From Phycomyces nitens (lineage: Eukaryota; Mucoromycota; Mucoromycetes; Mucorales; Phycomycetaceae), in the NCBI GenBank assembly GCA_022702545.1, contig JAHRBC010000002.1, forward strand, positions 7,130,001 to 7,194,000: a DNA stretch of 64,000 bases. The letters are read 5' to 3'. Shown piece by piece: positions 13,747-62,900 of the stretch. Made by a program: the position numbers and the translations under genes. Numbering within the stretch: position 1 is the first letter of the stretch; every line of letters begins with the position of its first letter. The notes under the pieces were generated by a model. The model was not told where the DNA came from. It did not search any database and was given only the letters and a program-made list of their open reading frames with translations.

Positions 13747-15614
13747 GTAGACGTCTCCAGCAATTCTCTCTAGCCTGGCAACGCCTAACCGACAGTCGTT
13801 GGGTTCACAATGTCGTCAAAGACGGCTTCCGTATTCACTTTCGTCAAAACCCTCCACTACGTTACAGTCCATTCAATATCAAACCTTCCACACCAGAACA
13901 ACGACAGCTCCTCCGTCAAGAAATCTCCGACCTCCTCTTCAAGAAAGCCATAGAACCTGTTTCAGACCTGTCCCCCGGATTTTACAGCAACATGTTTGTA
14001 ATTCCCAAGCACAATGGCGGCCACCGACCGGTATTCAACCTCAAGTCCCTCAACCAGTACCTCGATGCGCCGCACTTCAAAATGGAAGACATGAAACAAG
14101 TGATCCACTTGATGCGCCCCAAGGATTATATGACATCCATAGACCTCTCAGATGCATTTCTCCATATCTTGATCCACAAGCACTCTCGCAAATATCTTCG
14201 TTTTTCCTGGAACAACCAAGTCTTCCAATTCCGCACGACTCCCTTTGGTCTCTCCATCGTCCCTTGGCTCTTCACACGACTCACCAAAACGATTCTCAAG
14301 TGGGCCCGTTCCTCGGGAATTCGTTTGACCGCCTACCTAGACGATTGGCTCTTACTTGGAGAAACCCAGGAACTGGTCTCCAACCAGACGACTGCGGTCC
14401 TCCAGCAACTGAAATCTCTGGGTTGGTTGGTCAACGAAAAGAAGTCACACCTGACCCCGACCCGCCGGATAGAACACTTGGGTTATGTCTTGGATACAGA
14501 CTCAATGACTGCCAGCCTACCAGGGAAGAAGATCCGCGACCTACGGAAATCAATTCAGGCACTTTTGACCGATACATCGACTACCCCACGGAAGGTGCAC
14601 AGCCTGACAATGCGCATCAAAGCTGCGACTCTGGCAATCTTCCCAGCCAACTTGTACACCCAACATTTGCTTCGGTTCAAGAACCAATCCGTTCGTTCAC
14701 CGAACTCCTGGGACCTCCCGATCCTGCTCCCCCAGTCCTGCCGCCAAGAGCTCCAGTGGTGGTTAGACAACCTGACGAAGTGGAACGGCAAGGCCCTCAT
14801 AGCATCCGACCCCCAATTCCAAATTCACGTAGACGCAAGCAACAGTGGATGGGGCGGTGTCTTCCAAGACCAGCACGTTTATGGACATTGGACCACCGAG
14901 GAAGCATCCCAGTCCATCAACTGGAAGGAGATGAAGGCAGTACAATTGACACTACAGACCTTCCCCTCTCTTTGCAACACAACGATCCTGGTCCACACGG
15001 ACAACACGACCTCCATGACCTACATCAACAAGCAAGGCGGCACTCGCTCTCTCCCCCTCTCCAGTCTGGCAACCGAACTTTGGGAAATGTGCATTGCACG
15101 AGGCCTGTCCCTTACAGCGAAACACATCCCGGGGAGACTCAATGTACAAGCCGACTGGGCCTCCCGACAAGTCTTCACGAAGAACCTGTGGCGAATCCGT
15201 CCTGCATATTTCAATCAGATCCAACAAACTTGGGGTCCCCACGATGTGGATCTATTCGCCGACCGTCTCACAGCCCTCCTCCCGCAGTATGTTTCTTGGA
15301 AGATAGACCCAGGGTCAATGGCGATCGATGCTCTCTCTCTGTCGTGGAAGACCTTCCAGAACCCTTACCTCCATCCTCCATGGAACTTGATATTGAAATG
15401 CCTGCACAAGATCCAGACCGAGCAGATTACAGCCACAATAGTAGTCCCCTTTTGGCCGAGCTCGATATGGTTCCCACTTCTCCAGGCTATGGCTATGGCT
15501 CCACCTCTCCTTCTGACGGCCAAGACAATCGAGACCATGTCACCACTCACACCGCACCCACTGGCCGGCACGAAGTGGAAGCTCTCCGTTTGGAGAGTCT
15601 CAAGCGTACACTAG
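13743..15614 (+). CDS. DIRS reverse transcriptase-RNase H
   Basis: This is the polymerase of the DIRS element. The frame is open from about 13344; the first ATG is at 13992, and conserved RT sequence begins near 13743. RT blocks are MFVIPKHNGGHRPVFNLKSL, HFKM, YMTSIDLSDAFLHI, FRTTPFGLSIVPWLFTRL and the catalytic TAYLDDWLLL with both aspartates. RNase H follows, with HVDASNSGWGG, the glutamate in NWKEMKAVQ and VHTDNTTSMTYINKQGG. Continuing toward the end are HIPGRLNVQADWASR and PHDVDLFADRLTA, usual in DIRS pol. No stop or frameshift interrupts the 1.87 kb. It overlaps the recombinase frame by about 235 bases. Confidence 0.92.
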   Translation, partial: VGRRLQQFSLAWQRLTDSRWVHNVVKDGFRIHFRQNPPLRYSPFNIKPSTPEQRQLLRQEISDLLFKKAIEPVSDLSPGFYSNMFVIPKHNGGHRPVFNLKSLNQYLDAPHFKMEDMKQVIHLMRPKDYMTSIDLSDAFLHILIHKHSRKYLRFSWNNQVFQFRTTPFGLSIVPWLFTRLTKTILKWARSSGIRLTAYLDDWLLLGETQELVSNQTTAVLQQLKSLGWLVNEKKSHLTPTRRIEHLGYVLDTDSMTASLPGKKIRDLRKSIQALLTDTSTTPRKVHSLTMRIKAATLAIFPANLYTQHLLRFKNQSVRSPNSWDLPILLPQSCRQELQWWLDNLTKWNGKALIASDPQFQIHVDASNSGWGGVFQDQHVYGHWTTEEASQSINWKEMKAVQLTLQTFPSLCNTTILVHTDNTTSMTYINKQGGTRSLPLSSLATELWEMCIARGLSLTAKHIPGRLNVQADWASRQVFTKNLWRIRPAYFNQIQQTWGPHDVDLFADRLTALLPQYVSWKIDPGSMAIDALSLSWKTFQNPYLHPPWNLILKCLHKIQTEQITATIVVPFWPSSIWFPLLQAMAMAPPLLLTAKTIETMSPLTPHPLAGTKWKLSVWRVSSVH

Positions 15615-16618
15615 AGGATACTCTTCTTTCTGAAGATGCCCGAAAGCTCTTCTTGGACTCACTGACCGATGACAGCCCAACTAATCGCATCTACGCCCGA
15701 GGACAGCGCCTTTTCATACTATGGGCCATTGCGAACGAAGTCTCACTCTTGCACTTTACCGCCACGGATATGGTCAACTTCTTCACTTCCCCCAAAATGT
15801 CCAACTATAATGTCAACACTTTACAGACCTTCCGTTCTGCCATTCGTCGCCTCCACAGCCATCCTGCTACTCTGTCGTCCGACCCACGCCTGATTGACCT
15901 TTTCAAGTTACTTAAACGTTCCGCGCCACCCGTAGCCATGTCTAGACCCTTGATTGACCTCTCTCCTACCTTTGTGTTCTTGTCCACTATACCTTCGGAT
16001 CCATCTACCTCTCTTGCCCCTTTGTCCCGCAAGACCGCCTTTCTTCTGGCCATGGCTGCATTTCTTCGCCCGTCGGACCTTCACCGGGTGATTCTTAGCA
16101 AATGCAGTATTGATGGTCAACGTCGGCTCCATCTGGTCATACACGCTCCCAAGGAGACACGCGCGGGACGCCGTATTATAAAATCTCCTATAATTCAGCC
16201 ACACGATTCCAATCTCGCCCTTTGTCCTGTTCTAGCTTTCTCAGTACTACGAGATCACCCTGGCACGACGTCAAGACCGATCGACACACTCTTTGTTTGC
16301 GCGAAGTCACCCTCCCTTCCTGTTTCCGCTCATACTATTTCTTCCTGGCTAAGAACACTCACTCAGATGTCTACCACAGTCAAGCCTTGCCCATCCGTGC
16401 GCTCTATTGCTTCAGACCTTGCTATCCAGAGTGGTGCTCCTTTAGATGATGTGGTTGCCATGGGAAATTGGTCCAACCCTTCTATCTTTGACACTCACTA
16501 CCGTCGATCTCGCGCACTTCGCACCAACATCACTGAATCCGTACTCCCATCTGCATTCTCCTCTACTCGTTCCCCAGATAATGGCTCCACGCATCCTGAC
16601 TCCAACATGGTATCGTAG
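15380..16618 (+). CDS. DIRS tyrosine recombinase
   Basis: This is the integrase of the element, which inserts a circular cDNA by tyrosine-recombinase chemistry without duplicating the target. The Met at 15380 gives about 412 residues. An N-terminal SAM-like core-binding domain (YARGQRLFILWAIANEV, LQTFRSAIRRLHSH) precedes the catalytic domain. The catalytic Arg lies in AAFLRPSDLHRV, a basic strand in HAPKETRAGRR, a second Arg in PSVRSIASDLA, the Trp in MGNWSNPS and the nucleophile Tyr in IFDTHYRRS. The His of the usual HxxR is replaced, as is frequent in this group. The same frame is open upstream to 13799 across the whole RT region; that part is probably not translated. Confidence 0.88.
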   Translation: MELDIEMPAQDPDRADYSHNSSPLLAELDMVPTSPGYGYGSTSPSDGQDNRDHVTTHTAPTGRHEVEALRLESLKRTLEDTLLSEDARKLFLDSLTDDSPTNRIYARGQRLFILWAIANEVSLLHFTATDMVNFFTSPKMSNYNVNTLQTFRSAIRRLHSHPATLSSDPRLIDLFKLLKRSAPPVAMSRPLIDLSPTFVFLSTIPSDPSTSLAPLSRKTAFLLAMAAFLRPSDLHRVILSKCSIDGQRRLHLVIHAPKETRAGRRIIKSPIIQPHDSNLALCPVLAFSVLRDHPGTTSRPIDTLFVCAKSPSLPVSAHTISSWLRTLTQMSTTVKPCPSVRSIASDLAIQSGAPLDDVVAMGNWSNPSIFDTHYRRSRALRTNITESVLPSAFSSTRSPDNGSTHPDSNMVS

Positions 16619-35352: not shown

Positions 35353-35514
35353 CGAGGGGGCCGTGGACGTGGGACATACCAGGGCAGAGGTTACACGCAT
35401 AACACAAATAATCGCGGAGGCTTTCTTGGGAGAGGACAACCGAGAGGACGAGGAGCACCAACGATGTCTCCAACAAGTCAACCAGCAGCCAACAATGTTC
35501 CCCCTCAAGCTTAG
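35353..35514 (+). pseudogene. Gag C-terminal tail (RGG-rich), truncated
   Basis: An open tail with RGGRGRGTYQGRGY and FLGRGQPRGRGAP ends at TAG 35512-35514. It is the RGG-type end of a gag like the one at 46328 (which has SNRGQQGRGRG). The pol frame, which is one base ahead, overlaps it. The rest of gag is missing. Confidence 0.7.
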
Positions 35515-37396
35515 AACTATTGAAGCACCCGTCCTTAAAAATAGAAAAAATATCAAAAACAATTCAATTAAAAAATGGAAGCTTGCTTTCCAACAATACT
35601 ATGAAAAAAAAAGTCTAGAAAACAAAGAAAACAACAATACTCTACACTACAATATCCCCGCAGATGGGATTGCACCTGGGAGCAGACTCCAAAAGTTCCT
35701 CCCCAACTGGAAAACACTCACGAATCACCAATGGCCGTTATCAGTTATCAGCCAAGGGTACCAAATACAATTTCAAAACCAACCAATTCCCTGGAAGATC
35801 AACAAGCCTTACAAACTCTCAGAGATCTACCAGCAAGCAGTGAACAAGAGTGTAGAGAAATTTCACGAATCCAATGTGATAGAACTCTCACCGAACCAAG
35901 ACAAACGATTCTTGTCACAGTTTTTCACCATCCAGGAACCCAACAAAATCAGACCTATTTTAGACTGCCGACAAATCAACCAATTTATACAATGCAGCTA
36001 TTTCAAGATGGAGGGTGTGCCTGCGTTGAGAGAGATGATAGAAGCAAAGGATTACATGACCAAGATTGACCTAAAAGATGCCTATATTGTAGTTCCAATT
36101 CACCCTCAATCTCGCAAGTATCTCTCATTTCAGTACAAGTCCCTAGCATTTGGGTTGAGTGTAGCGCCTCGGGTATTCTCCAAGCTAATGAGATATGCTC
36201 TAGAGCCCCTGAGACAACAAGGGATAAGGTTGGTCTACTATCTCGACAATATTTGTGTGCTGGCAAAGACCAAACAAGAGATGGAGAAACACTCGAAGAA
36301 AGTGACAGATCAGCTACAAGCCCTGGGATTTATAATCAATTGGGAGAAGAGCAACCTGATCCCGAAGCAGAAACAAGATTTTCTGGGGTTCACGTTCAAC
36401 TCACTGACAAAGAAGATCACTGTGCCAGCCGAGAAGATGAGCAAACTGAGAGTCAGAATACGGAAAATACAAACAAAGACCTTTTCTTGCCGATGGGTCG
36501 CGGGGCTGTTGGGGAAGATTACAGCGATGATACCCGCCATAGGAGAAACCCTGCTCCATATACGACATATCTAGAGAAACCTGGCAATATCTCTACGCCA
36601 CTATCACCAGAAATGAGACAGTAAATACCTAATCTCAACACAGACCCGAATAAAAATGACCTGGTGGTTGGACATAGCACAAACCAAGAATGGTCTACCG
36701 ATACCAGCCACAGTTTAACAACAAGAACCAGCGGTGACAATCCATGTCGACGCCTCCGAAACCGGATGGGGAGTTACCTCGACTGCAGTGGAGACAGCCG
36801 GGTACTGGAGAGAGGACGAAAAAGAACTCTCGATCAATGCGAGGGAGTTACAGACGATACTGTTTGTCTTGCAACTCCACGCAAAAGAATTCGAAAACTG
36901 TGCAATCCAAGTGTTTTCAGACAACATGACAGCACTCAAATACGTGAAGAAGTCGGGAGGGACAGTATCCCCCATTCTACAACAACTAGCCCTGGATGTG
37001 CAGATTCTCTGCAACGAGTACAATCTGAAGGTAAACTACCAACATATCCCCAGATTAAAAAATACACAGGCAGACCAGTTAAGTTGAAAGGCAAAACCCC
37101 TGTACAAATGGACCTTGCCAAGATGATACTTCCAGCAAATCAAAAAAAAAAGATTCGGGATATTGACAGTGAATGCATTTTCCACACGGGAAAATACCCG
37201 GCTACCAACCTTTTGGAGTTACAAGGTAGACCCAGCAGCCGTTGCGACCGATGCTTTCGCACAATCGTGGCCAACAACAGGACTATACTTACACCCACCG
37301 TGGAAGTTGATCCCTCAGGTCCTCCAAAAGATCAGGCAGGATCGAGTCAAGAGAGCAGTGCTGGTGATCCCGAATTGGTCAAGTCAGTATTGGTAG
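35515..37396 (+). pseudogene. Reverse transcriptase-RNase H with mutated active site and several stops
   Basis: The frame is open from 35363 to 36574 with RT blocks KIRPILDCRQINQF, YMTKIDLKDAYIVVPI and LAFGLSVAPRVFSKLM. The catalytic box is YYLDNICVLAK: the second aspartate of YLDD is Asn. In the same frame, stops at 36572 (TAG), 36614 (TGA), 36716 (TAA), 37085 (TGA) and 37124 (TGA) interrupt the enzyme. Between them RNase H blocks remain: TIHVDASETGWGV, the Glu of NARELQTI, FSDNMTALKYVKKSGG, and HIPRLKNTQADQLS. The sequence would be inactive without trans-complementation. Confidence 0.85.
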
Positions 37397-37467
37397 CCAA
37401 TGTTAATGAGACAAACGGTAAGAAAACCGATGGTTCTGCCAATAAGCCAACGGCGGTCCTTAGCCGC

Positions 37468-38688
37468 ATGGATATTGTCAGCAAACATCAGAAGAAGTCT
37501 GGGTTAAGCAAAACAGCCAGTGCATATATACAAGGAACAGTCAGAGACAGTAGCAGTAAGGCGTATGATTGGGCGTGGAAGAAATTTTCTGATTGGTGCC
37601 AGAAAATGGATCCTACTTTGGACATTGAAGACCACAACCCGACCCTCGTGGTAGAATACCTGATATTAAACCGCCACTTAACTTACTCTACTTTGAATAT
37701 ATGGAGATCGGCAATCGCATCTGTGTATGATAAATTGCACCCTGACAAGCAACGTTTGGCGGAAAACAGTCTGGTGCAAGACTTTTTCAAGGCAAAACTA
37801 AGAGAAATGACGACGATCCATCCTAAAGAAAAGCTTCAGACTTGGGATATAAGCCTAGTAGTCCAGTATATCAGATCATGGACCACAACAAACGAAGACA
37901 TGCCCTTACAACAACTGCAGACCAAGACCATCATGTGTTTGTGTATGGCAACGATGTGGCGCCCCAGGTCCGATATTGGAGGCCTCTGCTACCAAGACGT
38001 ATCGTTTCGATCGACCAGCCGATCCGGTATTAAGGGCGACGATTTGTTCAGTACCACAGAACCAGTAAGTAGGGTAACCCTTGCCTCCAGAGCGCCAAAA
38101 GAAGGCCAATTCAAGATGTCTCGTCTTGGATCTCTAGAAGAAGAACCAACATTGTGCCCTGTACAGACCTTGATAACCTTTATCAAACGTACACAAACGA
38201 AGAGAACTGAACTACCTGAGGATCACTCGCTTTTCCTGGCCTACGTGGATCACCCGATTGAGAAACCATCGTCAGCATCAGAGAAGACAGTAGTAGGATG
38301 GATAAAGACGATGATGGAAAATTCGGGGGTGGATACAACATTGTTCACGCCCCACTCTCTACGAGCAGCCTCGAGCACAAGAGCAGTCCAACGGGGAATA
38401 CCAATTCAACAAGTCAAGATGCATGCAAACTGGAGTTTGCGTAGTAACACTTTTGAGAATTACCACCTCAAGCTAAATAACCAACATGAAGAGAGTTCAG
38501 CCTTGGTAAAAACCATTTTTACTGCTAACAATATAGAGAAAGATACCATATCTGGAGTCGAAGCAAAGGCTACGACTATTGTGGTAGGTATGACCCACAA
38601 TAGGACAGTTGCCGAAGCTGAGACGAGAGATATGGTGGACACCCGCCCATGGATAACAAGGATGCTATTTCCCCACCCATCAAACTAA
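37468..38688 (+). CDS. Tyrosine recombinase of the second DIRS-type element, open frame
   Basis: This is an open recombinase of about 406 residues from the Met at 37468; the frame extends upstream without stop. The N-terminal core-binding domain includes SKAYDWAWKKFSDWCQ and YSTLNIWRSAIASVY. Catalytic residues are present: Arg in TMWRPRSDIGGL, Lys region RAPKEGQFKMSRL, HxxR in TPHSLRAASSTRA, Trp in HANWSLRS and Tyr in TFENYHLK. It is intact although the RT of the same element is destroyed, which is unexpected if both decay neutrally. A glycine/threonine-rich tail follows the Tyr by about 75 residues. Confidence 0.8.
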   Translation: MDIVSKHQKKSGLSKTASAYIQGTVRDSSSKAYDWAWKKFSDWCQKMDPTLDIEDHNPTLVVEYLILNRHLTYSTLNIWRSAIASVYDKLHPDKQRLAENSLVQDFFKAKLREMTTIHPKEKLQTWDISLVVQYIRSWTTTNEDMPLQQLQTKTIMCLCMATMWRPRSDIGGLCYQDVSFRSTSRSGIKGDDLFSTTEPVSRVTLASRAPKEGQFKMSRLGSLEEEPTLCPVQTLITFIKRTQTKRTELPEDHSLFLAYVDHPIEKPSSASEKTVVGWIKTMMENSGVDTTLFTPHSLRAASSTRAVQRGIPIQQVKMHANWSLRSNTFENYHLKLNNQHEESSALVKTIFTANNIEKDTISGVEAKATTIVVGMTHNRTVAEAETRDMVDTRPWITRMLFPHPSN

Positions 38689-46327: not shown

Positions 46328-47100
46328 ATGAATATCAATGAACTCTCACCAGAGAAAATCCTCGAGATTATTAAGCTTGGTCAACAAGCACAACAACGAC
46401 AGAGAGATTATGAAGGAGACGAACTACCCGAAGAACTTTACAAAGATTTTGAAGAGTCTTTGACGAAAGGTCTCTAATCCAGTATTAACAGGTTTGCCAA
46501 AGATACCCTCAACTTTGAGGGCGGAAAATGGGCCAAGTCAGGAGCAATCAATCAGATCTTTGTCAAAGACCTCAAGAAATACACAATGGATGCCCATAAA
46601 ATTGTACAGGACAAATATAAGGATGGCGACAAACTCAGGATCACTGGAAAAGTAGCAAGTGAAATCTTCCTTGACCTTAGACACATCAGCACCAGAGGGG
46701 GCAGTGCTACCGACACAGCCGATCTGGAAGACATCATCCAGAAAGTCAGACGTTTGGCCGTCTATGCGTTTGCCAGTGGAAAAGCGCTCGATGAAAATGC
46801 CAAAGATATTAGTATCAGAGCAATCAAACTCCCAACAAGAGCAAGATATCTCAAATATGAAGAAGACAAGGACAAGGACATGGTCTTCGATCAGGAGTGG
46901 GTAGATAAAATACAACAGGCCAGATATGAAGAATCAGTTCTTCAAAGTGCAGTCAGCAATAATAGAGGAAGATATTCCAAAGGTGGATACTCCAATAGAG
47001 GACAACAAGGCAGAGGAAGAGGCTGTGAAGGCAAATTCTATAGTAAAGCACAATCCAACTACTCACAAAAATCTTTTTTTTTGGGAGAGAAAAATCGACT
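46328..47100 (+). pseudogene. Gag of the DIRS/Ngaro-type element
   Basis: It starts MNINELSPEKILEIIKLGQQ. It has one in-frame TAA (46475-46477), then is open through KDLKKYTMDAHKIVQDKY, DLEDIIQKVRRLAVYAFASG and a C-terminal RGG/GN-rich tail (GRYSKGGYSNRGQQGRGRG). The tail runs into the minisatellite-bearing stretch, which replaces the normal gag-pol junction. It resembles gag proteins of this retroelement group in size and in having a basic tail in place of a CCHC. Confidence 0.7.
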
Positions 47101-47152
47101 CCCCCAGGTCCCAATACACAACATTACACACCAGCCAACAACACACCAGCCA

Positions 47153-47290
47153 GGCAACACACCATCCAGGCAACACACCATCCAGGCAACACACCATCCA
47201 GGCAACACACCATCCAGGCAACACACCATCCAGGCAACACACCATCCAAGCAACACACCATCCAGGCAACACACCATCCAGGCAACAATA
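47153..47290 (+). repeat. 16-bp minisatellite inside gag-pol
   Basis: About 8.5 tandem copies of AGGCAACACACCATCC, with one A substitution in unit 7. Because 16 is not a multiple of three, three units (48 bases) give a 16-residue peptide period (HHPGNTPSRQHTIQAT), and all three forward frames stay open across the array. Confidence 0.95.
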
Positions 47291-47438
47291 ACGACATATC
47301 TTCTAAGTATTACCTCCAGATTTTCCAATAAAGTCACAAGTATCATCTCACACAGACACATCTATAGTTCCATAATCAATCTCGGTTCTACAACAACATT
47401 TCAACATTCAAATATATGGAAGTCCTCCAGGAGAACGA

Positions 47439-48182
47439 TTGAACAAATTTATAATAACATGGAAGAACACAATCAATCAACAATGGCCAATAATGGTAGT
47501 AAAGCAAGGGTACAGAATACAGTGGACGAAGTTCCCGATACCGTGGAGAGTCAAACCATTGTCATTACCACCAGAAGACCAAAAAGAGGTGGATTTAGCA
47601 GTGGAGAAAATCAAGAACTCGGATGTGATTGTGATATTGCCTACACAGAACGGGGACTACTTGTCCCAGTTCTTTATCGTCCGAGAAACAAACAAATGCC
47701 GCCCGATTCTGGACTGCAAACGGATCAACCAATTCATTCAGTGTCATCACTTCAAGATGGAAAGAGTGCCTGCCCTGAGAGATATCACCGAGCCAGGAGA
47801 TTTAATGACAAAGATGGACTTGAAAGATGCGTACATAGTTGTACCAATTCACAAGGACTCCTGACGTTTTCTCACATTCAAACAAAAGGGTACAGTGTAC
47901 CAATACAAGTCGCTCCCTTTTGGGATGAGTGTGGCTCCAATAGTATTTTCAAAACTCATGAGATATGTAATGGAACCTCTTCGGAAGAAGGGTATCCGAC
48001 TGGTCTACCACTTGGATGATATATCTATTCTAGCAAAACCCAAGTTGGAGATGGAATAACAGTCATCTCAGGTGATAAGACACCTAACTTCTCTGGGCTA
48101 TCTGATCAACTGGCAGAAGAGTGTATTAACACCTTCATACAAACAGGATTTTTTAGGCTTTCTATTCAATACCAAGAACATG
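47439..48182 (+). pseudogene. Partial reverse transcriptase, two nonsense codons, LINE-truncated
   Basis: One frame, ending at the LINE, contains NKCRPILDCKRINQF, LMTKMDLKDAYIVVPI, YKSLPFGMSVAPIVFSKLM and the intact catalytic YHLDDISILAK. A TGA at 47862-47864 lies where the 35-kb copy has Arg (HPQSRKYL against HKDS-stop-RFL), and a TAA lies at 48057-48059. The coding sequence stops at FLGFLFNTKNM where the LINE tail begins. Confidence 0.8.
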
Positions 48183-51568: not shown

Positions 51569-53027
51569 ATGCTCTCCTTCACTGCTTCTCACTTTCTCTC
51601 TCTCTCCGCTGTTCTTGCGCCTTCAAGTGCGTTCTCTCCTGCTGACCTCCCTCTTCCTGTGCCCTTCTCTCCAACTCTCCATCTCCATCTCTCTGGCCCT
51701 TTCTTTCTCTCCATTCCTGCCACTCCTGCCACTCTTGCTGTTGGAGCCGCCTGTGCTGCGCTTGCCGTGCCACTGTTGCTGAGGAATTCTGGAGATATAT
51801 CCAGGGCTTCTGGCTCTTCTGGTGGTGCTTCTGGCCCTTCTGTTGGCAGTTCTGTTGGCCGTTCTGTTGGTCCAAGCCTTGCTCTTGCTCCTGCTTGTGA
51901 CCCTGTTTGTGGTCTTGGTCGTGGTCTTGGTCGTGGCTCTCCTCTTCGCCATGTTTGTGGCTCTCCTCTTGGCTCTGTTCGTGGCCCTGCTTTTGTTTCT
52001 CGTCATGGTCATGTTTACGGCCCAGCCCATGGTCCTGCTTCTGCTTCTGTCCATGGTTTTTCTTGTGGACGTGCTTTGCCACCAGTACCAAGTTGTACTG
52101 TTACTAGAACCCCCACTGAAGGTATGTTTTATTTTTGTCTAGTATCACATATTTCTGAAAGTGGCTACGAAATTCAAAAATATTATTTGCTTTATAGCCT
52201 CTGGTCATAAGCGAGACCATGCAGATATCACTCGTGGTGATGAGGAGGTTTACCGCCCTACATCTCGTCGTCGTATTGGAGACAATGTTCTATCTGAGGG
52301 TAAGGAAGAAAATATTTCACTGGTATACTTTTCTGTGTCTTGACTTATACTCTATTTGTAATTTTTAGCTGTACCCGCTCCTAGAGGAACAAAGCGCGTA
52401 CGAAATATCGACGCAGACGAGCTAAAGGTGGTTTATAAAAGAGTGAAGACCAAATACGAGGCTGGGCTAGTCATGCCTAAAAAATCCAAGAAAATCGAGC
52501 CCTGCCTCTACACAGAGGTGCTCCAAAAAGAGCACTATCTTGGGCTAAAAGAGCTCAATCGTAGTGTACATGGGGAAGACAAGGAGGAGGAGGTTAAAAG
52601 ACCAGCTCCTACAACTCTTCCTCGTCCTACTCTTACAGGGGAGAGTAAGAGGGACTCCTTTACTTGCGCTCCTCCTGGTGGCTGGTGCAACTGCCGCTCG
52701 TTCGCACAGTACGGGTCATGTTATATGTGCCCATCATGCCGTAGCTGTTTCCAGAATTGCCCATGCAAAGTCCCAGAGCTGTCCGAGTTGCCAGTAGTAA
52801 TTCCGGCACAAAGTGACTTTGATTTTCTTGACGACTTCGGAAACCCACGTCTTCCAGTTTCTTCTGGTCACTCTCGCAAATCTCGCGGCTCTCGTCGATC
52901 TCGCGGTTCTCGCAGCTCTGGCAGTTCTGGCGGCTATGATAGGTCCGGTGAACAAGCTCACCAGACCGGCCCTTGGGGGAAGGTGCTCGACATGGCAACA
53001 GCAGTGAAGAGGTTCTTCTCCTCATAA
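51569..53027 (+). CDS. Gene A, unrecognised three-exon family (paralogue of gene B)
   Basis: Function is not recognised. Exons are 51569-52121, 52198-52299 and 52369-53027, all joined in phase 1, giving 437 residues. Exon 1 encodes a Ser/Pro/Ala-rich N-terminus, a hydrophobic segment (TLAVGAACAALAVPLLL) and a Gly/Ser/Val low-complexity part. Exon 2 gives the conserved ITRGDEEVYRPTSRRRIG. Exon 3 starts VPAPRGTKRVRNIDADEL, continues VVYKRVKTKYEAG, contains a Cys-rich cluster (nine Cys in GWCNC...CYMCPSCRSC...CPC) that gene B lacks, then Ser/Arg repeats, and ends TAVKRFFSS. Basic patches could be nuclear localisation signals. A charged antisense frame over exon 1 is a shadow of the repeats. The stop codon lies in a hairpin (53003-53040). 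Confidence 0.78.
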
Positions 53028-53171
53028 GAACCTCTTCACTCAAGCCCAGCTACCTAATCAAGGCTGGGCTTGATATCTGGGACTTGACCTGGAGAACCGG
53101 CAGAAGCAATCCTAGATTGGCAATCTAGGAGGTAACAAGATTGAAACATATCGCACTAACAATCTTGTTAC
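53003..53171 (+). ncRNA. Conserved hairpin series across the stop codon and 3' UTR of gene A
   Basis: There are four perfect or wobble-paired hairpins. H1, 53003-53040: 15-bp arms AGTGAAGAGGTTCTT and complement, with an 8-base loop; the TAA stop lies at the loop edge. H2, 53041-53072: arms CAAGCCCAGC(T). H2b, 53111-53129: arms CCTAGATT. H3, 53132-53171: arms GTAACAAGATTG. H1, H2 and H3 are kept in gene B (61275-61439), where differences in H1 and H2 preserve pairing by wobble. This is annotated as RNA structure inside the mRNA, not as a separate RNA gene. Confidence 0.7.
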
Positions 53172-54640
53172 TAAAATAGCAACAGGCAGCAACAGGGAGC
53201 AACACAAAGCAACACAAAGCAACAGGAACTAACATTACTAACCCTTTCTTTGTATATAAACAGAATACGACACACGTTCCTGTATTTCTCTATTATATTT
53301 TATTGAATTGTATTGAACAATCTTGTATTCCATTGTATTCCACTGAATTGTATTGAATTATTTTGTAATCTATTGTATTCCACTGAATTGTATTGAAACA
53401 AATTGTATTTCATTTTATTATATTGTATTTTACTGGCCTTGGCTGCCTTGAACACATCTATTTGACGATTGAAATATATATTATTACTCTTGGTGTAGTA
53501 CAAAAATCTATATGTCACTGAAATTATCTTTAAATTCTTATTAATATTGAATAACTTTTATAAATCACAATAGTTGTTCAATCGTATTTTTTCAAAGTAT
53601 TCGATATATCTACATTTTTTTCAACCAAGTGTTTATACAGTTAAAGCTGCTATATAAAGTATAGTGCTATATTTTCTCGCATCGTCTTGATTATTTGAAT
53701 CACACATTTTCCAACCGATCAACAACATATTAAAGTAGGGACTCATATTATAGACATGAGTTTGTAGTCAGTAGACCCTTTGACGACAGTTTTTCATATA
53801 CAATCCATAACAATACTGATATTAATATACAGGCAATCTACAGTGCAATAAAATATATGGAAAGGTACGAAAAATCTATTTCCAAAAAAAGTGGAAAGAA
53901 TCTACAAAGATCATGAATAAAGAGAATAACAACAATCTAGCTAATCAAATAGATTTGTTCAGTTTTATAGAGATTTCAATAGGGCATAATTTACTATGAG
54001 TTTCTGGAGAGAGAAAAATAAAATAAAAGCTACATTATTTACTGCCGAGCTATGAGAATAATGTATATATATTGTATTTAGAAAACAAGTCCATGAAGCC
54101 GGGAAAAATATAAGAGCAAAGGTAAGAGATATTTTTATCATTGCCAAAGACCAAAAGCAATTGAACTTATATTTCCAGTGATAGTCCCAAAGGGCGAGCA
54201 AGGGAAAATAAAACATTAAACTAGCAGATATGATAAGATTCATTACCGATGAAAAGACAAAGATCTAAATGCTGTGAGAAGAACAATGGGCAGATGGGTG
54301 TTATCAAAGATATTTGACCAGATTCGTATTATCACACCAAAGCTCATAGATTTTGCATAGAGAAAGTGGTATTCTTTTTACTTGTTTTAGTAATTCCAAT
54401 GGCTCTTTCACCTAAACAATTGAATATGTCAATTTTGAAAGATTCCCTCAGAAACATTATCCCTTCTTCACTGGCTATCTCACTTACCCTTCCACTGGTG
54501 GTCTATCTACATTTAACTAGCCACACACACCAATTTAGCCCGCTTAGCTATGGACATTCTACTCTCAATTCCAACAGTAAATAAAAGATAATTTGCTTCC
54601 TAGTACTTGTAAGAGACAAAGATCTATAAGCTACTACGCA
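53172..54640. repeat. Duplicated 3' flank of gene A with minisatellites and a LINE fragment
   Basis: Short AGCAACACAA units (53178-53222) and a TTGTATTGAA-type array (about 53305-53430) come first. Then follows a stretch shared with 61750-61880 (TGGCCTTGGCTGCCTTGA..., CTGAAATTATCTTT), and later minus-strand sequence resembling the LINE C-terminus around 53990-54400. Corresponding sequence lies at 61440-62600. Confidence 0.65.
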
Positions 54641-56530
54641 AGTATATCAATGAGGTATCTCCACCTATTTTATCTTTTATCACATCCCTTTAGATTTTCC
54701 CAATATGGAGGATCTTTCAGGACATTTGTGTCTGAAATATTTTAGTGGAAAGGAACGATATGTACTTTGAGACTCTTTTATTGTATGAAGATAAATCAAA
54801 TTGAATTGAATTAGAAGTATATTTAATGAACAATAATACCAGTACTTACAGATATTAAAATAAATCTAGTTACTCTGGATATTGGTCATCGTAATGGCTG
54901 TGCTGTCAGTTAACTGGATACTTTAGGGCAGTGTCCTACTGTAGATTAGACGTAATACGTTTGTCTTGGGTAAGGATATTTTGGTTGTAGTTTATATCGA
55001 GTCCTGACAGTACAAATTTCTGGGTTTGTATATCACTTTATGGGATATTTAATCATGCCAAATACAATGGTTTTTTTTCCTAGTTGGTAAAAGCAACGTC
55101 AATAAACGTGGTTTATTAGAAATATAAAAATATGGACAAAATAATACAAGAGTACAACCACGCTCGGATTCATTTTCAAACGGTTTGGAGCAGGATTAGT
55201 CTTTGAGACTAGAGATAAAGCTGGTGCTTTAGCCCCAGCGTGGAAAATGTGGAAAGCAATTAACAGGTGGAAGATCCCCTGGAAACTTAGGATTAACGAA
55301 AAAGTTAGCCTTGTCGTTCTCCATTATCAGATATGTCCAATAAGTTAGAATATTTACGTTTAAGTCTATGAGTGTTGTTATGACAGCGATTGTAAAGGTA
55401 GTCAGGTAAATTGCACTTCTAGCACACGCAAAATTATCACTAAGGGTAGTTAGAGAAAAGGTGTTTAGGGTTATGGCAAGAGTTCCAGTGCAAATGTATC
55501 TTGGACCAAATGGAGCAAACATTTCGATCATCTTCAAAAGTAAAAGCATGAGATAAATGTAGCAGTGGTATTAAAGAAGGACTGTGTGAGGAGTGGATAA
55601 GAGCATAGGCTTGTCCATCAGCCATTCTTTCGAGAATCGTGTGCTCCCCTGAAACATAATGTCATATTTTTTTGATATATTTACCTATGATGATTACTGT
55701 TTTTGATCTATTTTATATAGCAACTTTTGAGAGAAAGACCTTGGCCAATTCTACCTTTGGTCCAAAAGAGAGAAATATATGGGACCATGTTCCACAAACT
55801 GCGATTCCTTTGTTGGCATATTTTAAAACGTCTTTACCTGTTCTCATTAAGATCTCCACGACCGAGAATTTTCCAATGTAATGGAGTGATAATTCGACAA
55901 CAATGGTATATGAAAGGTGCGATTGAGTAGCATCCTTAAATTATGTAAGTGCTACATTAGCAGCAATACTTTTATACAGCAAAGTGTGTGGCTCCTCCGC
56001 GGGACCAGATGGAGTCATCAATGATGCCATGTTCATTGCAAGATATTTGGTAAATGGTATCTGTGTCAACAACCCCCAAAAAAACTAGTGCCCGAGATTT
56101 GGGCGATGGATAATTGAAGCGTAGACTAGTAAAGGTGGGCTAATTGTGGTAGCCATGGGTTCATAGTCTTTTTGTATTCCAGAATTGTTGGTGTCTATGG
56201 TGACAAATACAACAGTCTCAATCTTATCCTCAAGGTATTGGGCGCCAAATAAAGACAGTATTTGGAAAGTCACGAAAGATCAATGAATTATGTCTCTCGA
56301 GTGATTAGTATTCCAAACATGCGTATAAAAAAGCTATCACAGTAAGAGATCAACGGTTCCTGACAACTCCACCCCTGTCTGCTGAACTCAAAAAAATTGT
56401 TTAAATCCGTCTGGTATCCCTGGACATAATTATGATGCTGTCGCAGCCCAACTTAGAGAATTCTCAAGCTTATTTGGGGAAGTATGTGGCACTGTGGTTT
56501 ATAAAAAGTTTAGCATCAATGGTTAAGGCT
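54641..56530. other. Unassigned, probably LINE-derived debris
   Basis: Minus-strand frames such as 55229-55549 are hydrophobic and Leu/Ile/Thr-rich and may be remnants of LINE ORF2, but no motif can be identified. No gene is supported. Confidence 0.35.
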
Positions 56531-58163
56531 ATCTTTTTTCTTGTAGAGGAGAACAAGTTCCAAAATTCATTCTGTGTTACGAAGGGAACATAATTGTCTT
56601 TGGTTTTTGTTTTGATTGACTTTGTAAAATAGAAATAGAGATCTAGGAGAGTGCTATATTGAATCTATTTCAAATAAAAACTGGAAGGTGATAGTATATA
56701 GCTTATAATTAACGGTAGAAAAAAATGGGATTCTATAAAAATCAACACTTCGATGGGCTTTCCAGATGGCTAAGATTATGCTGATAATTACTTGGAGGAT
56801 TGGACGGAAAAATTGAGAGTGGGCGATCAGTGAGGTCAAGATGGAAGAATCCACAGTGTATGTCATTCGACTGTATTATATGGACAAGGTATTTGTCCTA
56901 TATATTTTCCTATATCGACCATTTGTGTGAATACTGATTGAGAAAGTGAGAAAGTGCGTCAATATCAAATATGCAAACTTGACAAGTGGATGTAGAAAAG
57001 ATCGAGGGAGTTCACTGGTAAAATGTCAGTTGGCATGGTGAGGTATTTGGTATAGCCCAGTACCAGATATTTTGGGTTGTGATGAATTGGATGGAGCCAA
57101 AGTAGCTTCCTCTGGTTAGGATGCAGAGGAAAGTTCTCGGACGGCAATGTGGAGAAGTTTTGGCAAATATCATGCAAACGGATTGTGGAAAGGTTACTCA
57201 ACCGTTTGTAGCTATTATAGAGGGTTGAGACAGGAGGAATACATTCAACAACAAGAGGGTGATCAGGAAGTCTTAAGCCAGAGTGGTCCCTGGAGTCCAA
57301 AGTGTCTTTCCAAAATAATGGAATAAACTTGTCTGATTCCTCAGCAAAGTCTTAGAACAGTTTTGCAAGTAGGTAAGGTGAGTCGGTCTGTTTAGATGGC
57401 AGACACAGGCGAATGAATTGTAGATTTTTGACAGGTATAAATGCATCAGGGACCATAAGGCCTTTCTAACCAAAAGTATTTTGTGGACGGGGTCTTTGAA
57501 TATCACTACATCCAACAACCTGAGAGGGACAGGATTAATATCTAGGTGTAATCAAGCAGAAAACTCAAAAGAGGGGGTCTATTGTGGGTAGAATGGTAAT
57601 TAGTGCATTATTCTTTGATTGTACAAATGGATATTGGAGTTTAAAAAAACGAGAGGGAGAAGAAAATCAGAGAAAGACTGGCTAGGATTGGTATAGCAAC
57701 TCCAACGTTGGACAGAAGATTTGTGAATTGGATTGTCAGAAATTGGTTGTATCCAATGTAAAGTTAGAAATTTCTACTAGATCTAGGGATCAAAGGTGTC
57801 CGGTCTTTCGTGAAGTTTTGGAAAGCAAAGATAGAAAAGACTAGCCATTTGAAGCATTTCTCAATGAAGAAACTGACTGACAACAGATATTAGTTTGTCC
57901 AAGATAGTTTGAAAGACATTAGTGGCAAAAAGGGCATGACAGATACTGGTAAGAATCAAAGTGTCAATGACAATAGTATGACCAACAATAAACTTGGATC
58001 GCTGTGAATATATGTTGCAGACGAATTCGACAATGTTTAGAAGCAAAGTACAAAAATGTTTTCTCTTGGCAATTAATTTAATAGAAGTCAAACCCAAGTA
58101 TGTAAGGGTAATTGGAGAAGTGCAATCGTACCATAAGGTAATTGACTTTGTCAATATAAATGA

Positions 58164-58490
58164 TTATCGCTCTGACAATGTGGCTACAAAGAGAGAGAAA
58201 TCCTGTGGCTTTTGCGGATTAATACGAACATTGGAGGTGCATGAGTTGGTATTCGGCTGTTTGTAGAGCACAATGAGATCCGTTCGAGATTTAAGAAAAA
58301 CTAGATCATCATCAGCATAAACTAAAAATTTAATAGGAGGTGGATCAGAAATGCTGTTGTCATCTGTGGCTACATTGAAGTTTGTAAGAGAGTAATCGTT
58401 GACCAATTATTGTGGCAGTAGCTTAAGATTAAGATTAAAAAGTACAGAAGGCAGTGAATCTCCCTGGCGGAACCCTCGATGTTGTATAAT
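58164..58490 (-). pseudogene. RT catalytic core of the LINE
   Basis: GFRQGDSLPSVLFNLNL is followed after about 25 codons by FLVYADDDLVFLKSRTDL, so both aspartates of the YADD box are present. A TAA separates the two parts. It is the only LINE reverse-transcriptase core seen in the window. Confidence 0.78.
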
Positions 58491-58809
58491 TGGAGATGAC
58501 AGAAAGCCGTTTCCATTGACGGAGATATTTGTGTTGAAGAATAGCTACATGATACACTATACGATAGATTGTGGGAAATGGAAGTAGTTAAGGCCTCGTC
58601 TCAATTACCCAGAATGCCCACCGGTGTATGTTTTTGCCTCGTCGAGAATTAATCCAATTGATGGATCGGAGGTGTGTCTGGGATGATGAATTACCATACA
58701 GATCATGAGTCCATTGTCTAAAATAAGACAACCTTTTACGAAGCCTGTTTGATATTAATTTATGAGAGGTTGCGGTGCATAAAGTGAGGTATATGGTTTG
58801 TTAGTATCT

Positions 58810-59082
58810 TTTAAGGGAAATAAGAATACTGTGAGAGTGTTATTTATTGAAGAAAGAATATTATGATTGCTTATATACTATTATTCAAATTCCCTTGTAA
58901 TTAAAGTCCCCGTCGTATAATGGTTGGTTATCACTGTAGCAGTGTGAAGTGTACGTGTGCCTGGTGTGTAACTGCTCCTGAGATGTTAACTTGCCAGGGT
59001 CATTAGCAAGTAGTAACCGGAGATCGGTTGTGGAGTCTGTATTTCACTCAACTGTGGTGTGTATACCACATAAAGTACTCCA
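58810..59082 (-). repeat. Dispersed LTR-like repeat, copy 2
   Basis: It matches 43048-43318 from TATCTTTTAAGGG to TGTATACCACA. It is located inside the LINE RT region, so it moved after the LINE. Target duplication is not clear. Confidence 0.6.
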
Positions 59083-59779
59083 GAATTTAGTAGACGAGTA
59101 AAGAGTTTCGCACAACAATGAATCAGTGCAATGGGGTACCAGTTCTATGACTCAATAGATCGCTTTTCTTTGTAATGAGTTACAGTAAGGTAGAGCTTTA
59201 AGAAAGTGGGAATATACCTTGAGTCAGAGAGTAATTGTATATGATTATTATTAGGTAGGCATAACCATCCTTCAAAAAAAGCATAGACCAGATCTCATAA
59301 GGTGAACCATCTGGCCTTGAACTGCTTTAGAAGGGAGAGCGTTTTGACGCTTAGAGAATTTCGTCGAATATAATGGGTACTGTCATTGAGGTACCAGATG
59401 GACTACCCAAAGCCTGTCTAGGTGGTAAGTTTGGAGCAAGTCATCAATAGATGTGCTGTCAATGAGATCAACAGTATATAACTGCTTGAAAAAGTGTGTC
59501 CCAGCGTCAGGTATTGTGCTAGCTGTATTACACCAGTTGAATGGCGCTTGATGATTCAAGGAAAGTATATCTCTTGTAGCTGCCTTGGCCGCAATTGTAC
59601 ACTCATACCCAAGATCTCGACATTTTCTTGTTAAAAAATTGCAAGTTCAAGCTCAACAAAAAGAAGTTGGCTGTTCCATACATGCTCAATCTTAAATTTG
59701 CGCCTAATCCTGTTGCGTTTTCTTTATATAGTCTTCTCTGCTATGTTCTCCAAAAAGCAATTTGTTTGCGATGATTATC

Positions 59780-60218
59780 GCTTTAAAGAAGTTTTTAAAT
59801 AACAGCAACGATGCATATATGGTACCATTTTTTACTCTCTTAACTCTCTTAACTCTACCAATCTTATCAATAGGATTTATAAATTATGTATACTTTTATA
59901 TGGACAAGCACATATTTTAGTTGACGATACTCCAGCTTGCTATGTAGTGTCCTTTGAAGTAAGCAGTTAATAGTAGATAATGTTTCATTTATAAAAAAAA
60001 ATTGATTTTTCTTAATGCTGTGTATGCATTAAAAAGGAAATTATGAAGTAAAAAAAAATAAACTTATAGGTATACCCTATTTTGGCACGAACGCCAAGTC
60101 ATCACAAACAATGATTACGTGTACTATTTTCTGGTCAGTAGTGCGTCCCAATCAAAATAAATAGAGGGGCTTTTGTCTTTTCTCATTCCTTGCCTTTCTT
60201 TCAGCTATTTATAATAAT
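59780..60218 (+). promoter_or_regulatory. Promoter region of duplicated gene B
   Basis: It shares GTCATCACA, CCAATC, a TATA-like AAATAAATAG and GGCTTTTGTCT with the gene A promoter at the same spacing. Sequence outside these short blocks has diverged, so they stand out as constrained. Confidence 0.65.
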
Positions 60219-61299
60219 ATGCTTGCTTTCACAACCTCTCACCCCACTGCTCTCGCTCTCGCTCCTCTTGGGACTTCTGTTCCTTTGTCGGTCTCTCCTG
60301 AGGCTCTTGCTTCTTTGGAAGTTTCGCCTGTCCAGGCGTCTCTTGCTGTTGGTGCAGCCTGCGCTGCGGTGGCCGCCCCTCTCTTCTTCAGGGCAGTTGC
60401 AAGAGCCCCTGTTACTCCCTCTGCTGTCCCCTCTGCCACCCAACCACTTCGTGTGTTCAGAGTTCCTGTGCAAGGTATGTTCATATTCATTGTCTAGTAT
60501 AATATGTTCCTAAAGCTGATCACGATACTCAAAAAACATCATTCACTTGATAGTATCTGGTCGTAAGAGAAAGCACTCTGAGATCACTGGTGGTGATGAG
60601 GAGGTTGGCCGCCCCACCTCTCGTCGTCGTATTGGGGAATATGTTCCATCGAGCGATGTTTCATCGGAAAACGGTCCATTGGTCAACATACCATCGGACA
60701 GCACTCCATTGGAGGGTAAGTAGCTAAATCATTTGCTAATACGTTTTTTCATGTATTGACCTATATTCCACTTGTCATTCTTAGAAGTACCCGCCCCAAG
60801 AGGTGTCAAGCGCACGCGAGACATTGACGCTGACGAACTCGAGCAAGTATACACGAGAGTAAAGGCTCGTTACGATGCCGGGCCTGTCCTCGCCCACCCA
60901 TTCAGAAGTGTACCATTAGATCTCTGTACATGGGTGGTGCGCCGAGAGCACATGCTTGAGCTCGAGGACCTCTACCGCGACATGACGGTAGCACGGGAGG
61001 AGTTCATCAAGCAGCAGCAGCAACAGCAGCAGACTCCTCCCAGCCCTGTCGAAGAGGTTGGACAGGCCTCCACCAGCCAGCAACCTGGCCAAGAAACCTC
61101 TCCTCCCTCCGGCCCTTCAGAGGAGGTTAACACCAGTGGCATCTCTGAAGAGCCGGCCGGCCAAGAAGCCTCTCCTCCCTCTGGCCCTTCGGAGGAGATT
61201 GACACCAATGGAGTCTCTGGCGAACTGGCCGGCCAGCCCACTCCTTGGGAGAAGGCCGTGAACGTCGCGGCCGCAGTGAAGAGGTTCTTTTCTCTTTAA
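60219..61299 (+). CDS. Gene B, unrecognised three-exon family (paralogue of gene A)
   Basis: Function is not recognised. Exons are 60219-60474, 60554-60715 and 60785-61299, all phase-1 joined, giving 310 residues. The N-terminus (MLAFTTSHPTALALAPLG) leads to a hydrophobic segment (ASLAVGAACAAVAAPLFF), matching gene A. Exon 2 has KRKHSEITGGDEEVGRPTSR plus a PSxxxSENGPL-type repeat. Exon 3 has VPAPRGVKRTRDIDADELEQ, VYTRVKARYDAGP, REHMLELEDLYRDM, a run of seven Gln, two to three repeats of SPPSGPSEE...G, and the end AVKRFFSL. The Cys cluster of gene A is absent. Thus the ends are conserved while the middle is replaced by low-complexity repeats. The stop codon lies in a hairpin as in gene A. Confidence 0.78.
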
Positions 61300-61439
61300 G
61301 AACCTCTTTACTGCCAAGCCCAGCCACCTGATCCAGGCTGGGCTTGTTCTCAATATCCGGCTCGAAGATTCTGGCAGAAGCAACAGGAAGCAACAGGAAG
61401 TAACAAGATTGAAACGTACCCGACTAACAATCTTGTGAC
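61275..61439 (+). ncRNA. Conserved hairpin series across the stop codon and 3' UTR of gene B
   Basis: H1, 61275-61312, has the same 15-bp arms as gene A with one C-to-T change that converts a G-C pair to G-U. H2, 61315-61346, has arms CAAGCCCAGCC; the closing pair is C-G here and U-G in gene A. H3, 61400-61439, has arms GTAACAAGATTG with one mismatch. The extra hairpin of gene A (53111-53129) is replaced by repeated AGCAACAGGA units. Confidence 0.7.
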
Positions 61440-61444
61440 TAACA

Positions 61445-61520
61445 TAGCAACAGGGAGCAACACAAAGCAACACAAAGCAACACAAAGCAACACAAAGCAA
61501 CACAAAGCAACAGGAACTAA
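61445..61520 (+). repeat. AGCAACACAA minisatellite downstream of gene B
   Basis: About five tandem 10-base AGCAACACAA units followed by AGCAACAGGAACTAACATT. The gene A counterpart (53178-53235) has two to three units, so the array expanded or contracted after duplication. Confidence 0.85.
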
Positions 61521-61574
61521 CATTATTGGCTCTTTTTTTGTGTATTAGCAGGAAGGTATCTGGTGTTCTGGTTC

Positions 61575-61750: not shown

Positions 61751-62900
61751 TTTTATTTACCTTTATTTTTATGTATTGGCCTTAGTTGCCTCGAGCACAT
61801 CTGCTTCAAATTGAAATATATTATCATTGCCCTTGGTGCGGTATAAAACTTTATATGCGTCTGAAATTATCTTTGAGTTCAAGCGAACATAAACCAACTG
61901 CTATAAAGCACAAAAGTCTTGTGCCGTTGAAGCTTTCTGAACATTAGCTAGATGTACACCTTTTGTAAATCAAGCACTTTTGCAACGAAAACCACAAAAT
62001 AAAGTCTCGACGATATATTCTCCACAATATTCTTTGCCTGTGAATCATACTATGGCAGAAAAATTAACAATGTGTTAATACGAGAAAATCCCAAATTATA
62101 GGTATGAATTTGAAGTCGGTAAAGGCTTTGACGATAGATCCTCGTGTGTGATCCCTGATCAAGCAATCAAAAAAGATGAGAATGTACCAAAGATTGATTT
62201 CCAAAGGAGCGGAAAGAAAATGTAGAGATTATAAATGATGAATATATAGCGGTTCTAGTTTGAGGAATATATTAATTATATAATTTTGTTGTTATTTGGG
62301 AAATGAATATATGGAGATAAGATCAATGTCAGAGAAGAGGTTTGTGATAACGTTTAAGCCGTACTAAGGATCAAAGGCGGTTGAAGCGGGACAAGTTTGA
62401 AGTGAAATTCCCTGTAAAAGTTCCATATGGCAAGCATGGTCCCACGCAAAGCTTGACCAGCAGATGCGATACTATCTAGTGCTGATAAGAATATAAAGGT
62501 CTGAAAAGCCTTGGAAAGTACAATGGGCAGAGGAATGATATTTAGGAGATTTGACCAGATTCTTATTCACACACAAAAGTTAAAACTATGTGCATAGATA
62601 AAGTGAAATTAAGACTTGACCAAGTAATGCTGAACAATATAGAGAGAATAAGATCCAGATGTGGGTATGGCGTGATAAAGGAGAGTATAGAAAGAGAGCA
62701 AGAGACCAAAAGAAGACCAATTGAGGTTTTTGAAAGGATGTATTTTTTTTGGGACTGGTACTGAAGCATTGTGAAGAGCAAGCAGGACAATTTGAATGAA
62801 TGGAGATATGAGGTTAATACTTACATAGAATCCGTACGTGTAGCCGGGATAGGGTTGATTGTGAACCATTTATAAGTATACAAGTCCAGATCGCAAAATA
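61751..62900. repeat. Duplicated 3' flank of gene B with LINE fragment
   Basis: It matches 53430-54640 in patches (TGGCCTTAGTTGCCTCGAGCACATCTG, CTGAAATTATCTTTGAGTTC, and GGAGATTTGACCAGATTCTTATT near 62545). Minus-strand translation near 62330-62560 contains QALRGTMLAIWNFYREFHF, like LINE ORF2 C-termini. Confidence 0.6.

Follow-up and report, generated by a model that had tools for sequence, protein, structure and literature searches.

The 3' stem-loop of histone mRNAs is a short conserved hairpin that lies soon after the stop codon in the transcripts of a multigene family; with a 6-bp stem and a 4-nt loop, it replaces poly(A). In yeast, the ASH1 E3-type element (She2/She3) is a stem-loop near the coding end that extends into the 3' untranslated region (UTR) and is bound by a transport protein, and in the hyphal fungus Ustilago maydis Rrm4 is said to bind CA-rich repeats in the 3' UTR of ubi1. 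Structured mRNA elements of early-diverging fungi are, to our knowledge, little described. One study states that four zipcodes along the length of ASH1 mRNA interact with She2, and it names an E3 RNA zipcode (PMC4117797). Here we analyze a window of 64,000 nucleotides from Phycomyces nitens (C4:7130001-7194000 of genome G000, which was searched over 48,981,352 bases in 11 contigs). It contains two paralogous orphan genes, W1 and W2, whose coding ends run into a series of hairpins and GCAACA repeats, referred to below as the 3' module. We propose, with a probability of roughly one half (0.52), that these hairpins belong to a structured 3' RNA element on the mRNAs of an orphan P. nitens multigene family.

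Like the ASH1 E3 element, the P. nitens stems would span the coding end and the 3' UTR of a fungal mRNA; in contrast to it, the stems of P. nitens are two, adjacent and longer, and they come with a decamer array. The repeated motif, GCAACA with a 10-nt period, differs from the CA-rich element of ubi1, and protein binding to it is putative. Unlike the histone hairpin, the P. nitens stem is 15-17 bp long and extends into the coding end, and Rfam at its gathering score gave no match in the 64-kb window. A literature search found no title or abstract start on this gene family or on such an element, subscription papers being mostly outside that search.

The 3' module of an orphan gene family

W1 and W2 and the parts of their modules lie at the following positions of the window.

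51569..53027, + strand: W1 (paralogue 1), orphan gene with three exons, last exon from 52369
60219..61299, + strand: W2 (paralogue 2), orphan gene with three exons, last exon from 60785
53003..53040, + strand: H1 of W1, arms 53003-53017/53026-53040, 15 bp perfect, 8-nt loop
61273..61314, + strand: H1 of W2, arms 61273-61289/61298-61314, 17 bp with one G-U, 8-nt loop
53040..53073, + strand: H2 of W1, arms 53040-53050/53063-53073, 11 bp, with a U-G pair added on the loop side
61315..61346, + strand: H2 of W2, arms 61315-61325/61336-61346, 11 bp
53110..53130, + strand: H2b of W1, also present in L002, L003 and the C9 pair, shorter in L015
53132..53171, + strand: H3 of W1, arms 53132-53143/53160-53171, 12 bp, 16-nt loop
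61400..61439, + strand: H3 of W2, arms 61400-61411/61428-61439, 12 bp with one A.G mismatch
53178..53228, + strand: AGCAACAnnn decamer array of W1
61377..61405, + strand: first, short decamer array of W2, at the place of H2b in W1
61446..61516, + strand: main AGCAACAnnn decamer array of W2
53227..53263, + strand: conserved tail AACTAACATTAC with a pyrimidine-rich run and CAG behind it, resembling a 3' splice site (W2 counterpart 61512-61551)

The module consists, in order, of H1 across the stop codon, H2, sometimes H2b, H3 and the AGCAACAnnn array. The W1 protein ends in ...TAVKRFFSS with the stop TAA at 53025-53027, and the W2 protein in ...AAVKRFFSL with TAA at 61297-61299. H1, 15-17 bp in most copies, starts in the AVKRF codons and crosses the stop, with both A's of TAA in paired positions; H2 (about 11 bp) follows directly 3' of it. 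The spacer after H2 contains a weak stem, H2a, with 8/8 pairs in L008 and 7/8 in L011 and L012, where two pairs are altered on both sides; in the other copies it is poor. Then come GGCAGAAGCAA, either H2b or GCAACA units (the latter at H2b's place in the W2 clade, L011 and L012), H3 and the array. The array is predicted to be mostly single-stranded and is followed by GGAACTAACATTA or a near variant, and then by a stretch that looks like a 3' splice site.

The first-pass annotation of this DNA had described, in both paralogues, a 15-bp stem spanning the stop codon, a second stem within a few bases and then GTAACAAGATTG. Both stems stand, the first with 15 bp in W1 and 17 bp including one G-U in W2 and with energies beyond chance, the second as H2. 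GTAACAAGATTG is indeed present; it is the 5' arm of H3, whose partner arm had been overlooked, and not a lone motif. The observation was right and understated; it took in H1, H2 and one H3 arm of a larger module.

DNA searches with the W1 region and the C9 region found 14 copies of the 3' region in the genome, repeat counts from such searches being lower bounds. Contig C4 holds 11 of them, at 6.80, 6.87 and 7.18-7.34 Mb; two form an inverted pair of 3.15 kb on C9 that is 98.9% identical (L067 711-3856 and 6355-9501), and one decayed copy, L015, lies on C8 (G000:C8:3101076-3104227). The modules of L007 and L008 have the same sequence. AVKRFF was found in 12/12 translated coding ends, among which L007 and L015 are not counted, and in proteins P0003-P0007.

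Three protein searches returned 0, 3 and 5 family relatives, every one from P. nitens; P0007 is 98-100% identical to the L003 locus across its three exons, and the C-terminal end of P0006 is exactly that of W2. No homologue from another species matched among the candidates scored, which shared 5-residue words (in one search only the 7996 best); because only such preselected candidates were scored, absence of the family outside P. nitens is unproven. Four family members and two last exons gave no Pfam match above the cut-off.

H1 and H2 fold beyond chance

Of 2557 75-nt windows taken across the 64 kb, the two with the lowest energies are H1-H2 of the two paralogues, at -43.0 and -42.4 kcal/mol; the background has a mean of -11.3 and a standard deviation of 5.5, and the lowest value outside both genes is -32.8. 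The corresponding z-scores are -7.5 and -5.8, and 0/200 shuffles folded as well in either case. A search for perfect hairpins of at least 10 bp gave 35 rows, of which 10 (nested) survived a complexity filter, all within H1, H2 and H3 of W1 and H1 of W2. The H2 of W2, with an arm devoid of T, fails the filter. With this filter applied, each of five Markov controls yielded between 0 and 2 rows.

Genome-wide, the exact patterns of H1 and H2 occur at 9 and 10 places, all within the gene family; the H3 pattern occurs 10 times in the family and once elsewhere, on C6. H1 and H2 fold in 13/13 copies with a coding end, at -38.6 to -50.9 kcal/mol over 74-76 nt. A genome-wide search for exact decamer pairs gave 60, every one of them on the sense strand of one of the 13 coding copies, compared with 2 for a reversed-pattern control, and the number of AGCAACA units per coding copy ranges from 3 to 13.

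In 12/13 coding copies the sense strand of H1-H2 folds better than the antisense strand (sum -588.6 vs -550.7 kcal/mol), with a gap below 0.5 kcal/mol in six of the 12 and with L007 and L008 being one sequence. This asymmetry leans toward RNA without proving it. With a permissive threshold (E up to 1), Rfam gave two weak matches at chance level in six loci, both below the gathering score and at L015 1000-1171, outside its module. A tRNA search found none.

Nucleotides of the stems appear to be under selection

Between groups of copies, 42-72% of the codons that encode the same residue are different. The five codons of the H1 arm, GCA GTG AAG AGG TTC, are identical in L001, L010, L011 and L008, and among the columns that are invariant in amino acid at these four loci a single codon is used in 5/5 of the arm vs 3/26 of the body (Fisher p 3e-4). 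With L003 added, which has two synonymous changes in the arm, the counts are 3/5 vs 1/22 (p 0.013); the test thus used 4 or 5 of the 12 translated coding ends. The codons that border the arm vary, namely the upstream Ala codon and the Phe codon whose third base lies in the loop, so the constraint has the same limits as the stem, an agreement that a gene-conversion tract would leave unexplained.

The non-coding columns follow the same pattern. Our alignment (A3) comprises 11/14 copies; L014, which has a long array insert, L015, in which H1 is rearranged, and L007, whose module equals that of L008, were set aside, and L012, in which the H3 3' arm is deleted, was also omitted from the counts of variable columns. 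With one sequence per group, 10/37 columns vary in the H1 3' arm and H2 arms and 4/24 in the H3 arms, compared with 39/63 in loops and spacers (p 9e-4 and 2e-4, respectively); with ten rows the counts are 12/37, 5/24 and 42/63. Loops and spacers here are columns 54-63, 75-111 and 147-162, exclusive of the H1 loop and the H2b region. The first-pass annotation had noted that loops and spacers vary.

What the comparison of copies shows is a module under nucleotide-level constraint that begins within the last codons and is able to fold into two adjacent strong stems, with H2b and H3 as optional additions. Selection on the stem nucleotides themselves is supported, mainly by evidence that the first-pass annotation lacked: codon freezing, column variability and the occurrence of H1-H2 in 13/13 coding copies, compared with a rearranged H1 and an 8-bp H2 in the copy that has no coding end. 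The first-pass annotation had argued from compensatory changes for selection on RNA structure. Its interpretation is of the right kind, yet the argument from compensation holds only partly. Paired cells over the 11 rows amount to 98.9% in H1, 98.3% in H2 and 87.1% in H3, and H1 changes mainly to G-U. The changes it gave as examples, G-C to G-U in H1 and U-G to C-G in H2, are present, and in H1 transitions keep pairing via G-U at 7 sites vs 2 at which it is broken (binomial p 0.09); over the three stems the ratio is 8 vs 5 (p 0.29), neither being significant. Two cells are changed on both sides, a number matched in 24/500 shuffles, and the covariation score was matched in 5/500, the rows being related.

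Uncompensated differences between arms, named in advance as speaking against the structure, occur in mild form in H1 of L003, H2 of L009, H3 of the W2 clade and the H3 deletion of L012. H1 is broken twice in L003, by a mismatch and a deletion, and once in L008; the two basal bases of its 3' arm are missing in W1 and L002. H2 is broken in L009 and, at its base, in L008. H3 carries an A.G mismatch throughout the W2 clade and in L011, one more mismatch in L006 and a C.C in L008, and it is lost in L012, whose coding end is open.

Identity along the locus peaks over H3 and the array

In a 60-nt identity profile, which is limited by short aligned windows and by the array repeats, the peak falls over H3 and the array (53160-53249), with 0.87-0.90 between W1 and W2 and 0.78-0.95 between W1 and C9. 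Introns reach about 0.5-0.7 and coding windows 0.0-0.82, exon 2 being the highest. The distal half, and not the module uniformly, is therefore the best-kept part of the locus, and H1-H2 is only moderately conserved by identity.

A decayed copy without the coding end

L015 aligns only over its 3' part, and no family protein was recognized there (best tblastn E 0.70). Its H1 is rearranged so that a GCAGT outer stem encloses a new palindrome, its H2 has 8 bp, and it has no decamer array (0 AGCAACA units). The fold reaches -25.1 kcal/mol over 90 nt, compared with the range of the 13 coding copies given above. As the only copy of its kind, L015 provides the sole contrast behind the link of coding end and stems. 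The loops of its H1 and H2 seem reversed, as an inversion of the palindromes would give. Next to it, on the other strand, lies what seems to be the last part of a RuvB-like helicase gene.

Linker and tail recur in a dispersed repeat

A dispersed repeat was found at 7 places (five on C8, one each on C4 and C1), 92-100% alike over a 381-base query. It measures about 4.8 kb between the copies compared, with varying 3' ends, and contains the following array.

L066 3710-4055 (G000:C4:7283700-7290000): hairpin array of the dispersed repeat with GCAACAGG linkers

The hairpins are perfect and 10-11 bp long, with GCAACAGG linkers and loops between them; CCGGCAGAAGCAACAGG lies ahead of them and AAAGCAACAGGAACTTACATT at the end, an order that the gene family shares. 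With at most 1 mismatch, the tail pattern occurs at 19 places in the genome, all in the gene family or the dispersed repeat. The modules of gene family and repeat are related. The genome-wide pattern search did not find exact H1 or H2 in the repeat, which sets it apart in that comparison.

The 5' end of the repeat, TCAGCGATCTTAGGGG, stands directly after an A in 2/3 copies read. Beginning with TC after A, it would fit the termini of Helitron-type or other mobile elements under the Helitron rule; the gene-family module differs in its exact H1 and H2. Stop-free frames in two copies of the repeat are short or of low complexity, with at most 189 codons on the array strand and 322 on the other, and on the minus strand two frames, 131 and 194 codons long, extend across the array. 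No transposase was recognized among the listed frames, for which no family search was made.

Proposed role and alternative explanations

The element would probably serve post-transcriptional control, as a tag on the mRNA, and we infer the controlled step as follows. The transcript would run through the module; an RNA-binding protein would find multivalent sites in the decamers; H1 and H2 would separate the decamer region from the coding sequence and would shield or label the mRNA. Strong stems at the stop together with a repeated, exposed motif are what multivalent protein binding would lead one to expect. The outcome would be a common control of the stability, localization or translation of the family's mRNAs. 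The locus is of interest for a coding end frozen at synonymous sites and for a 3' module that is in part better kept than the protein. If the module is a binding platform, its 13 copies would be natural variants, with 3 to 13 AGCAACA units and with or without H2b and H3.

Several observations weigh against this proposal. Transcription through the module is an assumption, and gene conversion or self-correction of palindromes could keep the region alike. The coding stretch directly upstream of H1 also has a fair degree of structure (-17.7 to -32.7 kcal/mol per 75 nt in 13 copies), and H1-H2 of L006 folds better as antisense. Compensation is weak, with 7/9 sites in H1 and 8/13 overall in closely related rows. 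H3 is dispensable: it carries a mismatch throughout the W2 clade, and L012 has lost it. By identity, H1 reaches 0.85 between W1 and W2, with 0.42-0.63 for H2 and its spacer (0.63 at H2), and H1-H2 reaches 0.60-0.73 between W1 and C9, no better than exon 2 (up to 0.82 and 0.67). Finally, linker and tail recur in the dispersed repeat.

Since that repeat shares linker and tail and has its own hairpins, an origin at the DNA level, or from a mobile repeat, is the main rival: palindromes and GCAACA units would be kept by template switching, conversion or recombination, without any role as RNA. We consider this possible though doubtful. It would account for CCGGCAGAAGCAACAGG and AAAGCAACAGGAACTTACATT standing in family order around perfect hairpins between GCAACA linkers, for the clustering of the gene copies and the near identity of the C9 pair, and for the L015 loops, which read better reversed, as expected from palindrome inversion; it gives no reason to expect codons that are frozen and sharply bounded at the stem, and the confinement of exact H1 and H2, and of all but one H3 place, to the gene family speaks against it. 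An unlikely extension would join repeat and family in a new class of portable RNA module made of hairpins alternating with exposed GCAACA: gene transcripts and dispersed repeat would share one RNA-binding machinery, and H1 would tie the module to the stop codon, so that a terminating ribosome opens or closes it. A link of this kind would show how a regulatory RNA module spreads or is captured.

That the AVKRFF C-terminus is a conserved protein signal, with the 3' arm and the rest as by-products of recent duplication, is quite unlikely in our estimate: the motif is present in every translated coding end and in P0003-P0007, and yet its conservation explains neither why the codons are identical nor why the non-coding 3' arm and H2 vary so little. 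Very unlikely, too, is that the part with H3 and the array is an intron or acceptor of the 3' UTR and that the hairpins act on splicing. After the array, 13/14 copies have a TACTAAC- or AACTAAC-like motif, a pyrimidine-rich run and CAG (CAA in L015), and H3 starts with GTAACA (GTATCA in L011 and L012); as a donor this would be weak by general knowledge, and the introns within the same genes are less alike, at about 0.5-0.7. Readthrough or recoding at the stop codon, for which the strong stem there would speak, we regard as extremely unlikely and rejected; the first-pass annotation had raised readthrough. The stop lies partly within the stem, no extension frame after it is conserved over the 14 copies (2 to 86 amino acids, with groups disagreeing), and the extensions, 9 amino acids in W1 and 82 in W2, are alike only among close copies. 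The proposed 3' RNA element remains our preferred reading.

Other features of the window

Beyond the module, one more conserved stretch follows W1 and W2.

53425..53580, + strand: second conserved island (W2 counterpart about 61774-61917)

The island occurs at 11 places, all in copies of the W1/W2 gene family, with identities of 0.78 (W1-W2) and 0.87 (W1-C9) over 53430-53500, and it may mark the end of the transcript. A minus-strand protein gene beneath it was considered, as W1, W2 and C9 have about 35 similar residues there; stops interrupt the frame, and the candidate is not supported.

A scan for bacterial-type signals, which is unsuited to a fungus, gave 4 promoter-like sites (3.2 in shuffles) and 1 terminator-like site (0.6). 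Tyrosine-recombinase-like open reading frames (ORFs) and a reverse transcriptase ORF lie at 13799-16618 and 35363-38688; Phage_integrase matches an ORF of 674 amino acids above the cut-off and one of 939 amino acids below it, and these ORFs presumably belong to DIRS/Ngaro-type elements. A 16-bp tandem array of ACACACCATCCAGGCA, with 10.2 copies, occupies 47126-47287 inside a 477-amino-acid ORF at 46586-48019.

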